33,924 nt of DNA from positions 1-33,924 of the IMG/VR virus record IMGVR_UViG_3300023174_000416; one strand, given 5' to 3'. Below the pieces are notes generated by a model, which ran no database searches, was not told the origin of the DNA, and saw only the letters and a program-made list of their open reading frames with translations. A program made the position numbers and the translations under genes. Shown here piece by piece: positions 94 to 33,924 of this stretch. How positions within the stretch are numbered: the stretch's first letter is position 1; each line of letters starts with the position of its first letter. This DNA comes from a virus.

Positions 94-735
94 TTACCAC
101 GCACGGCACGACCAATAACGTGCCTTTGTTCTTGGTCCTGGATTCTCGCAGTGATGACGTGCTCTAAAACTTCTACGGCGAGCAGGATTTGATTTTTTGA
201 TCTTCATCGTCTTTTGGCCAGCACGTTTGGCCGATGTGCCACCGTGTCCAAAGTTTACTTTTTTGATATTGCCTGTGCTTGGGTCACGCACATACACTTT
301 GAACTTCTTGACATCGCCACGCATGGGCTTACCCAATGGCACGTTGCGTCCCTGATATTCAGCTTCGTCTACTCCTATAGGATCATCTTCTGCTGTGCCA
401 TCGGCAGCACCAGGTTGAGCATCTGATGCCGGTTCTTCTTCTGTGGGATCTTCACTGACCAGTGTGTCGTCCACACTCATCATTTCATCAAGGTCTTCAC
501 AAGTGCAAGCTTCGTGCCCACAAACAGAACACTTGTCTTCTAGTTGATATCCATAGCTTTCTAGTATGGCAATGAGTTTGCTATCAGCTTCAATACACAA
601 TCTATCTTCTTCAACAGCAATGATATGACTTTCAATCAAACAATCTTCTTTGATGTTGATTGCAAAGTCATCACCCACTGCTGGATTTTCCATCCATTGT
701 TGAGATTCTGCAAGATATTCTTTAAACGATTTCAT
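94..735 (-). CDS. Putative internal capsid protein with T4-like capsid-targeting N-terminus and basic C-terminal domain
   Basis: 213 aa, no enzyme motif. The N-terminus MKSFKEYLAES resembles the capsid-targeting sequence of T4 internal proteins (MKTYQEFIAEA), including an L-x-E site at residues 8-10 where a T4-type prohead protease (gp21 cuts after L/I-x-E) could cut. Residues 69-80 form a C-x2-C-G-x3-C-x-C-E knuckle (Cys69, 72, 77, 79) that could bind metal. Residues 81-125 are acidic and low in complexity. The last ~70 residues are strongly basic and end with an R/H/C/W-rich segment (FRARHH...YWSCRAW) that I recognise as recurring in aquatic phage proteins and that looks suited to nucleic acid binding. 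The start overlaps the upstream stop by 4 nt (ATGA), so translation is probably coupled. Capsid entry and DNA binding are inferences; the similarity to the T4 leader is visible. Confidence 0.6.
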   Translation of the reverse strand: MKSFKEYLAESQQWMENPAVGDDFAINIKEDCLIESHIIAVEEDRLCIEADSKLIAILESYGYQLEDKCSVCGHEACTCEDLDEMMSVDDTLVSEDPTEEEPASDAQPGAADGTAEDDPIGVDEAEYQGRNVPLGKPMRGDVKKFKVYVRDPSTGNIKKVNFGHGGTSAKRAGQKTMKIKKSNPARRRSFRARHHCENPGPRTKARYWSCRAW

Positions 736-2384
736 TTTGCTTTGAACTGTTTGTAAAGATTGGTCAAATGTGACTCAATGTCTGCTTCTTCTTGTACACG
801 AACAGCTGACACAGGTACAGTGGTCTGTCCGTTGCCTGCAACATCACGCTTGGGCTTGTTTAACCCACCAGCAATGGTTTTGGTCATGTAGTCTGTGGTT
901 TGTGTTTCTTCGTCTGGCTCATTGGCATATTCTTCAGACATTTGCTCGCAACCGCAATCTGCAGATCCGCATGCTGGGCATACTTCTTTGTGTCCTGCAC
1001 TGGAACCCAGGCCTGCCATCTTGAGTAACATGGCCAACTGTTCAGCATCTTCATTGGTGGCATTGACTGAAAGACTCTTTGTACCGTCTTCGCCCACTGA
1101 CATATTGATGCTCATGCCTTCGGCAATCATGCTGAGTTTACGTTCAAAACTTTCAGCGATCTGACTTTCGTAGACACCTTTGCCAAACATCATACCCTTG
1201 GCTGCTTTGCCGCTGGTAGGTGCTGTTGCCACTGAACCGGCCACTGTGGTTTCTTCTACTTCTTCTTCCTTCTTTTTCTTTTCAGGAAGACCTTTGTGTT
1301 TGGTCTTGGCAAAATCTTCTACGTCGCCCTTCTTCATGGTCTTGGCCACTTTTTTCAACTCAGGGCTGGCGCCTTTGATCTTCTCACCTTTTTGCATAGC
1401 ATGTGCCATGCCCATAAACTTTTGTTGCTGACGGCTCACAGCTTTCTCTGACACAGGCATTTCTTCGCCATCTTCGGCGTCTGACGCTTTCATATAGTCA
1501 CGTGCTGTGTCCAAGTAATCCAAAGCCTTGGTAATTTTTGATTGTACCCACTCTGGCAAATTCTCATCTGCATCAAGTATGTCGTGCAATTCTTTTGCGG
1601 CTTCGGCAGCAGTGTGTAACTGTTCACGTGCCATGTCGCCTTCGCGGTCGTATTCGCCTTTGTCCACCAACGAAATCATTTCGTCTTCTTTCATGCGGAG
1701 CAGTTTGCTCTTGCCTGAGGGACCTTTGGCACCAAGTTTACGACCTGTGCCTGCTGGGCGACCTTTTTTCTTAGGACCGTCATCTTTGCTTTTGGCTTTT
1801 TTCTTGTCTTTGAGATTGCCATGCTCATCATAGTCATCATCATTGCCAGTGTCATCACGGTCTGAACGATAGCCATACTTCTTGTGTATGTTGCGATCGC
1901 TTTCAGAATCTTTTTGACTCTTGCTCATAGCACCTTGCAGTCCTTTGAGTAACTTCATGTCAAGTTCGTCAAGATTTTCTTCACGTACTGTTTCCATGTC
2001 GCCGTCACCATCTAAATCAGCTTTCTTCAAACCTGCGGCACGAGCTTTTGCAAGATTGCCTGTGAATCGGTTGCCTTCTTGTGCAACATCTTCTTTGGCA
2101 CGTAATTTCTTTAACACAGCGCCAGCGACTCTCTCGCCACTCTCTTTGCTTCCATAGGCCTTGCCGGCCTTGGCAGCGATCTGTGCAAATGCTTTGCCTG
2201 GCTTGCCAATGTCTTTACCTGCAGAGGCTTTTTTGGCTGAGTAGTCGCCTTCGTCTACAGCTTTGGCAGCAGACTTCATTGGTTCTTTGCGATTGCCGTC
2301 TTTGTCCAGATCAAGGAAATCAGGTTTGCTACCTTTGCCTTCCAGCAAATTCATTCTATCAAGTATTTCATACATGTTCTTCAT
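732..2384 (-). CDS. Composite Lys/Glu-rich phage protein (DUF3008-like segment, zinc knuckle); possible scaffold or internal head protein
   Basis: 550 aa. The start is taken at ATG 2384 because AAGGAAAA lies just upstream; a longer frame to 2444 would overlap the preceding gene. Parts in order: MKNMYEIL...LLEG with an L-x-E site (13-15); a DLDKDGNRKE calcium-loop-like motif (~25-34); a second acidic DLDGDGD (~123-129); a charged KKK/DDD linker (165-230); a helical segment ending in LPEWVQSKIT (~239-300), common in aquatic phages; a DUF3008-like segment with QQQKFMGMAHAMQKGE and FAKTKHKGLPEK (~318-370); a C-x2-C-G-x3-C-x-C-E knuckle at 469-480 matching the one in the downstream 213-aa protein; and an acidic tail. 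The charge and modularity fit a head scaffold or internal protein, but no T4 scaffold (gp22) signature is evident. Function unproven. Confidence 0.6.
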   Translation of the reverse strand: MKNMYEILDRMNLLEGKGSKPDFLDLDKDGNRKEPMKSAAKAVDEGDYSAKKASAGKDIGKPGKAFAQIAAKAGKAYGSKESGERVAGAVLKKLRAKEDVAQEGNRFTGNLAKARAAGLKKADLDGDGDMETVREENLDELDMKLLKGLQGAMSKSQKDSESDRNIHKKYGYRSDRDDTGNDDDYDEHGNLKDKKKAKSKDDGPKKKGRPAGTGRKLGAKGPSGKSKLLRMKEDEMISLVDKGEYDREGDMAREQLHTAAEAAKELHDILDADENLPEWVQSKITKALDYLDTARDYMKASDAEDGEEMPVSEKAVSRQQQKFMGMAHAMQKGEKIKGASPELKKVAKTMKKGDVEDFAKTKHKGLPEKKKKEEEVEETTVAGSVATAPTSGKAAKGMMFGKGVYESQIAESFERKLSMIAEGMSINMSVGEDGTKSLSVNATNEDAEQLAMLLKMAGLGSSAGHKEVCPACGSADCGCEQMSEEYANEPDEETQTTDYMTKTIAGGLNKPKRDVAGNGQTTVPVSAVRVQEEADIESHLTNLYKQFKAK

Positions 2385-2394
2385 TTTGTTTTCC

Positions 2395-2997
2395 TTATCT
2401 GGCGTTGCTGTGTACAGCTGGCAATCTATTTTTTGTAGTTCCAACAGGGCTCTTGTCGCCCATTGGAAATTCGTTTGATGTCACTGCTGGAGGAGTTTTG
2501 CCACCAGCCACTGTGAAGTCGCTCTTGTAAGCATTTTTAACTACTGCATGATCATAGGGGCCAGTTGCGTAGTCTTTGCTTAGAGCTTTCTGCTCTTTGT
2601 TGGGAGCAGGATAATCAGTGTCTGTCAACAGATTCTTGTTTTCTGCATCTTGTGTGTCGCGCTCTTCATCGATGCTGTCGGCATACTTGGTATCTTGCAT
2701 GATCACACGGTTTGGGTCCATGCCCAATAACTGAACAATCTGTGTGATCTGTGGTGGTGTTGCTGGATAGTTAAACACCACATCCATGAATGTCATGCTT
2801 TCATTGTTGTATTGTGGAAAGTCTTTTAGTTCTTTCTGCACTGGTGTTTTCTTGGGTGCTGTCATTGACACCACGTCAAATTGTTTGAGTTTTTCTTTAA
2901 ACTCACTCATAAATCCACTGTCAACGTCGCCTGCTATCTTGATGCGATAGTTGTATGTGTGTTTGGATTCTGTTAAGTATTCTGCAAAAGTTTTCAT
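2395..2997 (-). CDS. Conserved phage protein with capsid-targeting-like N-terminus
   Basis: 200 aa. The start at 2997 is supported by AGGGG about 7 nt upstream and a late-promoter box beyond it. The N-terminus MKTFAEYLTES is close to the T4 capsid-targeting leader MKTYQEFIAEA and to the leader of the 213-aa gene, with a possible gp21-type L-x-E site at residues 8-10. Residues ~14-105 look like a compact alpha/beta domain (YNYRIKIAGDV..., VVFNYPATPPQITQIVQLLGM, then a nucleotide-free loop RVIMQDTKYADS); the last ~95 residues are polar and probably disordered. It begins the transcription unit that includes the 550- and 213-aa genes. I do not recognise an enzyme; an internal or head-associated role is inferred from the leader and the neighbours. 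Confidence 0.6.
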   Translation of the reverse strand: MKTFAEYLTESKHTYNYRIKIAGDVDSGFMSEFKEKLKQFDVVSMTAPKKTPVQKELKDFPQYNNESMTFMDVVFNYPATPPQITQIVQLLGMDPNRVIMQDTKYADSIDEERDTQDAENKNLLTDTDYPAPNKEQKALSKDYATGPYDHAVVKNAYKSDFTVAGGKTPPAVTSNEFPMGDKSPVGTTKNRLPAVHSNAR

Positions 2998-3025: not shown

Positions 3026-3517
3026 TTAGGGCTTCTTTGGTTGTTCGCGCTTGACCAGCTTTTCCAACAGCTCGTTACGGTCAAGTATGTGTCCTGTTCC
3101 TGTACTCATAGCAGGATCATTGTTGTCTGCGCCATCACGATCAAACTTGGCTTTTTTAAGCTGTAAATCGATCATCTTTAGTTTCTTGTTGAGCTTGGCT
3201 GTTTTGGCTGTGATAGCATGCCCTAACAATGTACTGGCCACTGAAAAAATCTCGCTGGCATATCTACTGTCTACATTCATGCCCAGATCCATGAGATCAT
3301 TAAAGCTCTCTGTGGCTTTGGCTGCCAAATCATCCATTTCTGCATCGCTGGCTTCCAATCCACGCACAGCCGGCAATGCGGCTTCAATTTTGTCGAGTTT
3401 TTCTAATGCATCTGGAAGAACGGGCAAATTGGTTTCAATGTCATTGCCCGGCAGGGCATCATCGGCGGAATCCTCCCGGAGCGGAAGATCGAAGAGTTCT
3501 TCTAATTTCTTAGTCAT
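3026..3517 (-). CDS. 16: Terminase small subunit, gp16-like
   Basis: 163 aa, close to T4 gp16 (164 aa). gp16 oligomers recognise phage DNA and regulate the large terminase (gp17) during packaging at the portal. The sequence has an acidic N-terminal arm, two helices, and the central helix pattern YASEIFSVASTLLGHAITAK followed by KLNKKLKMIDLQLKKAK; this corresponds to the oligomerising coiled-coil core of gp16 in T4-like phages. The C-terminal tail is polar (MSTGTGHILDRNELL), as in relatives. It follows gp4 after 16 nt. No Shine-Dalgarno precedes the ATG; instead a TAAATA box ends 5 nt before it, so this gene may be read from a leaderless late transcript or by coupling with gp4. gp17 is not in the window. 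Confidence 0.75.
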   Translation of the reverse strand: MTKKLEELFDLPLREDSADDALPGNDIETNLPVLPDALEKLDKIEAALPAVRGLEASDAEMDDLAAKATESFNDLMDLGMNVDSRYASEIFSVASTLLGHAITAKTAKLNKKLKMIDLQLKKAKFDRDGADNNDPAMSTGTGHILDRNELLEKLVKREQPKKP

Positions 3518-3533: not shown

Positions 3534-3968
3534 TTATTTCTTGCCGTTACGGAAGATATCGTCTTCTGTGATCACCCGAAACTGCAAGCCCTGGCGTCGA
3601 CACCATTTGGTTGCGGCGTCCCATTTGGCGTAATTTACTGCAACAATGGCACGATCTCTAACCGATGCTTTGCTTTCCAGTATGCTTTGTTTTTTGGGTT
3701 TGATTTCAATCAGTTCTGTGATTACAGTGTTATTTCTAGTACGGTACTGTATCAAGAAGTCTGGAATATAGTTGGTCATCTTTCCTGTGAGTGGATGACG
3801 ATAGGGTATAGAGATTGACTCGCTGGCCCACTGAACTATGTTGTCGTTGTTGTCACAGAAACGCATAAAGGCCTGCTCCCAACCTGAACGGTACTTGGGT
3901 TTGCCTTTGCCTACGTATTTTTGTGGGTTTCGTACTTCAAAGAAACCCTGTGCATAGTTTCTGCTCAT
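3534..3968 (-). CDS. 4: Head completion protein gp4 (gp50/gp65)
   Basis: 144 aa, about the size of T4 gp4 (150 aa). The family pattern is clear: N-terminal FEVRNPQKYVGKGKPKYRSGWE, then RFCDNNDNIVQWASESISIPY, then a PDFLIQY...LIEIKPKK core. This last segment is the D...E-x-K catalytic layout of a restriction-endonuclease/TnsA-like fold: Asp in PDF, then ELIEIKPK with Glu and Lys. In T4, gp4 acts at the end of DNA packaging so that tails can attach to filled heads. The start overlaps the stop of the upstream 119-aa gene by 4 nt, so the two are probably translated together. Family assignment is from the visible motifs; nuclease activity is an inference. Confidence 0.85.
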   Translation of the reverse strand: MSRNYAQGFFEVRNPQKYVGKGKPKYRSGWEQAFMRFCDNNDNIVQWASESISIPYRHPLTGKMTNYIPDFLIQYRTRNNTVITELIEIKPKKQSILESKASVRDRAIVAVNYAKWDAATKWCRRQGLQFRVITEDDIFRNGKK

Positions 3969-33459: not shown

Positions 33460-33924
33460 TTAAGAGAATGACAAGTTGGAAACAGCGATCTCACCAACAT
33501 AGTCACCGGCGTTACCGAATGAAGATGCTGTGTTTGTGAGCTCGATGTAGCCGTAACGTGTCATGAACGATACGACTGGCTCGAAGCTTGTTGGATCCAG
33601 TACAACACCGCTTGACATCAATGGGATGTATGGGCAGTAGAATGCGGCTGCATCTGTTTCGCTTGCGCCTTTGTAACCTACCAAAACAGGAGTGCTGTCG
33701 TTGGCATAGCTGTCGCAGAACACACGCATTGCACCGTTCAATGTACCAACAAACTTGGTGTTTGTAGGTGCTTCAAATGTGCCTTCTGTTGTGCGAGCAA
33801 AAGCTGAAGTTGTTGCTGACTGGAGTACAGTCAATGAAGCTGGGGATACAACTGCCCAGTTACCAGCGCCACGACGTGTACGCTGAGCGATCAAGTTAGC
33901 AACACGATTGATCAAAACTGCCAA
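33460..33924 (-). CDS. 23: Major capsid protein gp23 (C-terminal part, cut by window edge)
   Basis: The last 154 or more residues of gp23, which forms the hexamers of the head shell (T4 gp23 is 521 aa). Seen: RRGAGNWAVVSPASLTVLQSATTSAFARTTEG, NTKFVGTLNGAMRVFCDSYA, TPVLVGYKGASETDAAAFYCPYIPLMSSGVVLDPTSFEPVVSFMTRYGYIELTNTA, and the end GEIAVSNLSFS. These match the family C-terminus. The reading frame is open to the window edge at 33924, so the M there is not a true start. A strong terminator follows. Sequence just outside to the right should contain the rest. Confidence 0.93.
   Translation of the reverse strand: MAVLINRVANLIAQRTRRGAGNWAVVSPASLTVLQSATTSAFARTTEGTFEAPTNTKFVGTLNGAMRVFCDSYANDSTPVLVGYKGASETDAAAFYCPYIPLMSSGVVLDPTSFEPVVSFMTRYGYIELTNTASSFGNAGDYVGEIAVSNLSFS

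Follow-up and report, generated by a model that had tools for sequence, protein, structure and literature searches.

A capsid-targeting leader of the T4 type appears, on good sequence grounds, to occur beyond the T-even phages, on two conserved virion proteins of a jumbo phage; the third protein encoded beside them has conserved candidate protease sites. The genes lie in a 33,924-nucleotide stretch of viral DNA (here the window) and probably belong to the late virion genes clustered in a jumbo T4-like phage, encoding internal-head (prohead core) proteins that the gp21 protease would process. In T4, the leader loads internal proteins into the head. The literature covered, from which most subscription journals were absent, yielded no description of this leader outside T-even-type phages. 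If the leader acts in the same way in jumbo phages and marine T4-like phages, many of their genes of unknown function would gain testable predictions: proteins inside the head, gp21 cut points and possible injection.

The earlier note had read three consecutive genes between positions 94 and 2997, and all three open reading frames are confirmed there, consecutive on the minus strand: a 200-aa virion protein (2395..2997; MKTFAEYLTES start) with leader, predicted ferredoxin-like domain and low-confidence tail; a 550-aa multi-module protein (732..2384; defined by ORF, profile search and family alignment) with three candidate gp21 sites; and a 213-aa protein (94..735; MKSFKEYLAES start) with leader, acidic middle and very basic C-terminal domain. 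Directly upstream of the 200-aa gene lies a 163-aa gene (3026..3517, minus strand; ORF and synteny), possibly the small terminase (gp16-like) judging by position, and then a gp4-like, TnsA-like head completion nuclease (3534..3968, minus strand; phrog_218 1e-42, PF08722 1e-21); profile searches also place two tail tubes and the tail sheath upstream in the transcript. At the far end lies the C-terminal part of a gp23-like major head protein (33460..33924, minus strand; phrog_138 1.5e-42), truncated by the fragment edge. The nuclease, tail tubes, sheath and capsid end together identify the window as a T4-like phage fragment, and its largest relatives, contigs of 209–345 kb, are jumbo phages. The order sheath, tubes, gp4, small ORF and then the three genes is fixed from the clade of the window to PA5oct, Vibrio and Rak2-like phages. 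As virion genes they are conserved in synteny across jumbo phages, and an order that stays fixed as far as the Rak2-like phages speaks for structural roles and against variable cargo.

Capsid-targeting-type leaders open the 200-aa protein (MKTFAEYLTE, 2968..2997, minus strand; from 24 relatives and a strict motif scan) and the 213-aa protein (MKSFKEYLAE, 706..735, minus strand; from 15 distinct close-family leaders), each with a predicted gp21 cut between E10 and S11. Mutation mapping of the T4 leader assigns residues 4 and 7 to targeting and 8 and 10 to processing (PMC9026906), and both window leaders keep all four positions. They resemble the leader of T4 IPI–III (MKTYQEFIAE-A) in length, K2, aromatic residues at 4 and 7, I or L at 8, E10 and a small residue at 11. 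Across 24 diverse relatives of the 200-aa protein, M1, K2, F4, Y7 and E10 are invariant, L8 and S11 reach at least 90% and columns 3, 5, 6 and 9 vary, an apparent conservation that is partly biased because the search seed contained the leader part MKTFAEYL. The seeds for the 213-aa family lacked residues 1–9; here K2, Y7 and E10 are invariant among the 15 leaders, with F/L4, L/I/F8 and S/A/T11. The bodies of the two proteins are unrelated, yet they share the same leader. A strict motif built from the T4-mapped positions (M..[FYL]..[FYL][ILMVF].E[ASGNT] at the protein start) finds just IPII and IPIII in T4, our positive control, and solely the 200-aa and 213-aa orthologues among the 408 genes of a 343-kb, nearly complete relative (G001), where shuffled N-termini give an expectation of 0.05 (Poisson P ~0.001). 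Among the 26 minus-strand genes of the window that were scanned, only the 200-aa and 213-aa genes match. The relaxed N-terminal LxE motif shows no clear genome-wide enrichment apart from T4, with near-background rates, and the analysis therefore rests on the strict form. The resemblance to the T4 leader that the earlier note saw in both proteins is borne out by the strict motif and by conservation at the mapped positions.

DNA-pattern scans of viral contigs extend the leader to at least 194 ORFs no shorter than 60 aa, which fall into at least 60 clusters. Matches to the leader pattern concentrate at gene starts (98 of 104 and 201 of 219 among the matches listed), with only 1 and 4 internal. 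When E is moved by one codon, a complete scan returns 23 stretches, several still reading LxE-E, against at least 120 for the leader pattern. With codon 4 left free, F4 is absent in only 3 of 98 among the matches listed; with codons 9–11 left free, E10 is present in 71 of 90.

A search for the processing enzyme, proposed earlier as a check, finds no gp21 protease gene in the 33.9-kb fragment itself and succeeds in the relatives: gp21 (PF03420) is present in all five larger than 200 kb, as in 9 of 9 reference phages. T4 likewise pairs a gp21 gene with a leader that is portable on unrelated proteins. In G001, gp21 adjoins gp20-, gp67-, gp22- and gp23-like genes, named by position and sequence and, for gp23, also by alignment. 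The protease occurs on 17 of 28 leader-bearing contigs versus 2 of 20 random contigs of at least 52 kb (Fisher P 0.0007; the two sets are not matched in detail for length and composition). It cuts after L/I-X-E and divides core proteins into several pieces, and the capsid protein T4 gp23 is shortened by 65 residues (PMC9026906). That 65-residue loss ends at the E of FLTE-A, and comparison of capsid proteins gives YLKE-N in the kin of the window and FLVE-N in PA5oct as the candidate cut site.

The T4-like leaders claimed for all three genes hold for the 200-aa and 213-aa proteins, whereas what opens the 550-aa protein is another kind of helix, of MxNMYEIL type, followed by LLE-G. Its start is best placed at the ATG at 2384, which is preceded by AAGGA; starting at an upstream TTG would lengthen it to 570 aa. 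The N-terminal segment reads MKNMYEILDRMNLLE (2340..2384, minus strand), with a cut predicted from LxE conservation after LLE, at residue 15. This LLE-G had also been singled out before, and all 21 of the 21 family members have [LI]xE near the start, ending at residues 15–27 despite indels and a changing spacer. Two further candidate sites are internal: IAE-S (residues 409–411; 1152..1160, minus strand), found in a subset of relatives, and IAE-G (residues 420–422; 1119..1127, minus strand), which abuts the MSINMS domain and is seen in the alignment of relatives. Just before that domain, [IL]xE-[GS] with variable P2 is present in 24 of 24 distinct relatives as read from the alignment; a regex gives 21, and the remaining three have the site too, next to a residue that the regex does not allow. 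Going by the site position, the predicted second cut would free a C-terminal piece of residues 423–550 (735..1118, minus strand; pI 4.6). A comparable site and domain (the domain matched by eye) stand at the very N-terminus of 121Q gp560, CBB_213 and Vibrio 2.275.O, with MAKKINE-A, MKKQINE-A and MTKQINE-A, respectively; it looks as if the cleavage site travels with the MSINMS domain. The protein resembles T4 gp22, gp67 and gp68 in being charged, apparently of low complexity and equipped with several L/I-X-E sites, which is what processing into multiple fragments would lead one to expect, but PHROG and Pfam searches give no match between it and these core families, and in the relatives the gp22-, gp67- and gp68-like genes are separate from the 550-aa gene, beside gp21. 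A helical module at residues ~237–297 (window 1493–1676; AREQL..AAEAAKELHDIL..EWVQSKITKALDYL) is also encoded by itself, as a small protein, in many viral contigs.

Mass spectrometry places orthologues of the 200-aa protein, and positional relatives of the 550-aa protein, in virions. ESI-MS/MS notes accompany the records of PA5oct EST35_0202 (200-aa orthologue) and EST35_0203 (positional counterpart of the 550-aa gene), and the CBB virion data include the 200-aa orthologue CBB_210 (13 peptides, 60.5% coverage) and CBB_213 (5 peptides) (PMC5259590). 121Q gp557–561 are annotated as structural. The 200-aa family corresponds to phrog_14802, 'virion structural protein' (Rak2-like and Asteriusvirus structural proteins and EST35_0202), with the same gene order: 11 of 24 members match, the best at 6e-10, and the window protein, below threshold by itself, is homologous to the matching members. 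Neither these sources nor the virion lists examined for PA5oct, MIJ3, CBB, phAPEC6 and Atu_ph07 give N-termini.

Position 10 is variable among these orthologues. E10 is kept in 121Q, CBB (MNKLQKILTE-L), Vibrio 2.275.O and Atu_ph07, while PA5oct (A; MKSFRDYYDA-S), Phosso (S), RaK2 (D), XaC1 (A), Munch (S) and BF (D) retain the hydrophobic helix and have lost the cut site; the Rak2-like members of phrog_14802 differ in having an MNxLQxIL helix with residue 10 variable. With position 10 lost in several other jumbo-phage lineages, leader cleavage is therefore not universal, and in PA5oct the 200-aa protein, with alanine there, gets into virions although it lacks a normal cut site. In T4, aspartate at position 10 blocks processing and leaves targeting intact (PMC9026906). 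The 200-aa proteins without E10 are either uncut, like this T4 mutant, or their helix has a second role. RaK2, XaC1, Munch and BF (L273, L274, L275 and L276) offer a natural series of uncut-type leaders. Atu_ph07 gp113 (YP_009611778.1; L201 8001-8756) seems annotated 29 codons too short, an upstream ATG behind a good ribosome site giving MKTLQDYLTE-S.

Such losses bear on the alternative that the N-terminal helix docks structural proteins permanently, for example in the head–neck region, and is never cleaved, with LxE just part of the helix end. We consider this unlikely, although the 200-aa family adjoins gp4 and the tail genes, Rak2-like phages vary at residue 10 but keep the hydrophobic positions 4, 7 and 8, and AlphaFold2 (AF2) predicts a helix at residues 4–10 of the 200-aa protein. 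A private helix would not explain a leader common to the unrelated 213-aa protein and to at least 60 clusters; the LxE-S/A/G ending resembles the capsid-protein site, and AF2 confidence falls at residues 9–11.

Head targeting with cleavage is instead what we infer, with good support from the T4-mapped positions, the gp21 of relatives, the capsid-protein site and the orthologues in virions; that part of the earlier proposal stands, with the qualification that the leader of the third protein differs. A T4-type leader, with tyrosine at 7 and either leucine or an aromatic residue at 4, would carry the 200-aa and 213-aa proteins into the prohead, and the phage's gp21 would then remove it after LxE, freeing both from the core. 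The 550-aa protein would behave like a core protein, entering by its own N-terminal helix and being cut at LLE-G and again at IAE-G, with release of the acidic C-terminal domain. The 200-aa protein is a conserved component of the virion. Its residues ~15–102 are, with moderate confidence, ferredoxin-like; Foldseek searches with the model return weak ferredoxin-like matches (ribosomal S6, PII), and for this reason we assign no function from structure. The 213-aa protein, whose AF2 model is poor (pLDDT 54), has a middle of pI 4.05 and a C-terminal domain of pI 11.06, through which it probably binds packaged DNA. This conserved basic domain (residues 122–213; 97..372, minus strand; phrog_7595, with invariant columns) makes up the C-terminal 92 residues. 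phrog_7595 has no annotated function; elsewhere it is joined to many unrelated N-termini, one of them nucleotidyltransferase-like (L054, L040, L055, L044 and others), some without the leader, and it occurs in other phage types, including small Pelagibacter phages.

A counter-defence or takeover role, suggested for the three proteins in the earlier note, fares less well. As injected effectors they would resemble T4 IPI–III and Alt, and the 200-aa and 213-aa proteins share the leader type of the T4 internal proteins; T4 Ip1–3 all inhibit GmrSD restriction enzymes (PMC12373910), and elsewhere Acb1-like and ART proteins bear the leader as well. We judge this reading very unlikely: the T4 internal proteins are variable and accessory, unlike the carriers here, which are syntenic and conserved to PA5oct, Vibrio and Rak2-like phages, and PHROG and Pfam profile searches find no effector domain in the three proteins. 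No similarity is seen between the protein bodies here and the T4 internal proteins, and cleavage here is predicted from sequence. It is possible that these three proteins are injected into the host, though nothing points to it. A chance likeness, or codon usage that gene starts have in common, is strongly disfavoured: the motif is short and its relaxed versions run near background, but two strict matches stand against 0.05 expected per genome, family-wide conservation falls on the T4-mapped positions, matches cluster at gene starts and displacing E by one codon removes most of them.

Because the leader occurs on many unrelated phage proteins, head-carried proteins may be readable from sequence. 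Whether it is a general, portable head-packing code in T4-like and jumbo phages, borne by dozens of unrelated proteins, we regard as evenly balanced; with the same reserve, the proteins so marked would include an Acb1-type anti-CBASS enzyme, an ADP-ribosyltransferase, adenylate kinase and peptidoglycan hydrolases. Were it true, sequence would reveal which proteins uncultured phages inject, and certain phages would arrive in the cell with an anti-CBASS enzyme ready-made. Pfam assignments above cut-off on leader-bearing proteins comprise an ADP-ribosyltransferase (ART-PolyVal; L303 6037-6813, plus strand), an adenylate kinase (L344 775-1356, minus strand), a DPBB lytic transglycosylase (L357 6199-6618, plus strand), a GNAT acetyltransferase (L377 6052-6432, plus strand), a glucosaminidase (L474 6253-7065, minus strand) and an Acb1 (anti-CBASS) homologue (L314 8603-9133, plus strand; PF23474, 46.5 bits). 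The last begins MKTFKDYLIE-S, has two HxT motifs and lies directly behind gp18-gp19-gp20-gp21-gp22-gp23-like genes, sheath and portal included, which makes it a candidate head-packed anti-CBASS enzyme. Both it and the ADP-ribosyltransferase look like injected cargo.

DUF6267 proteins also carry the leader or a variant of it (Pfam; L507 6610-7785, L514 10211-11419 and L415 947-2098, all minus strand). A KxDG motif that recalls nucleotidyl ligases is present in those of L507 and L514, and similar genes in Melnitz and HTVC008M start with LxE-like leaders. A possible shorter leader type, MRAxEF[IV]TE or MRASDFITE, opens several genes of the relatives (G001 323668-324464; G003 129153-129551 and 278846-279397).
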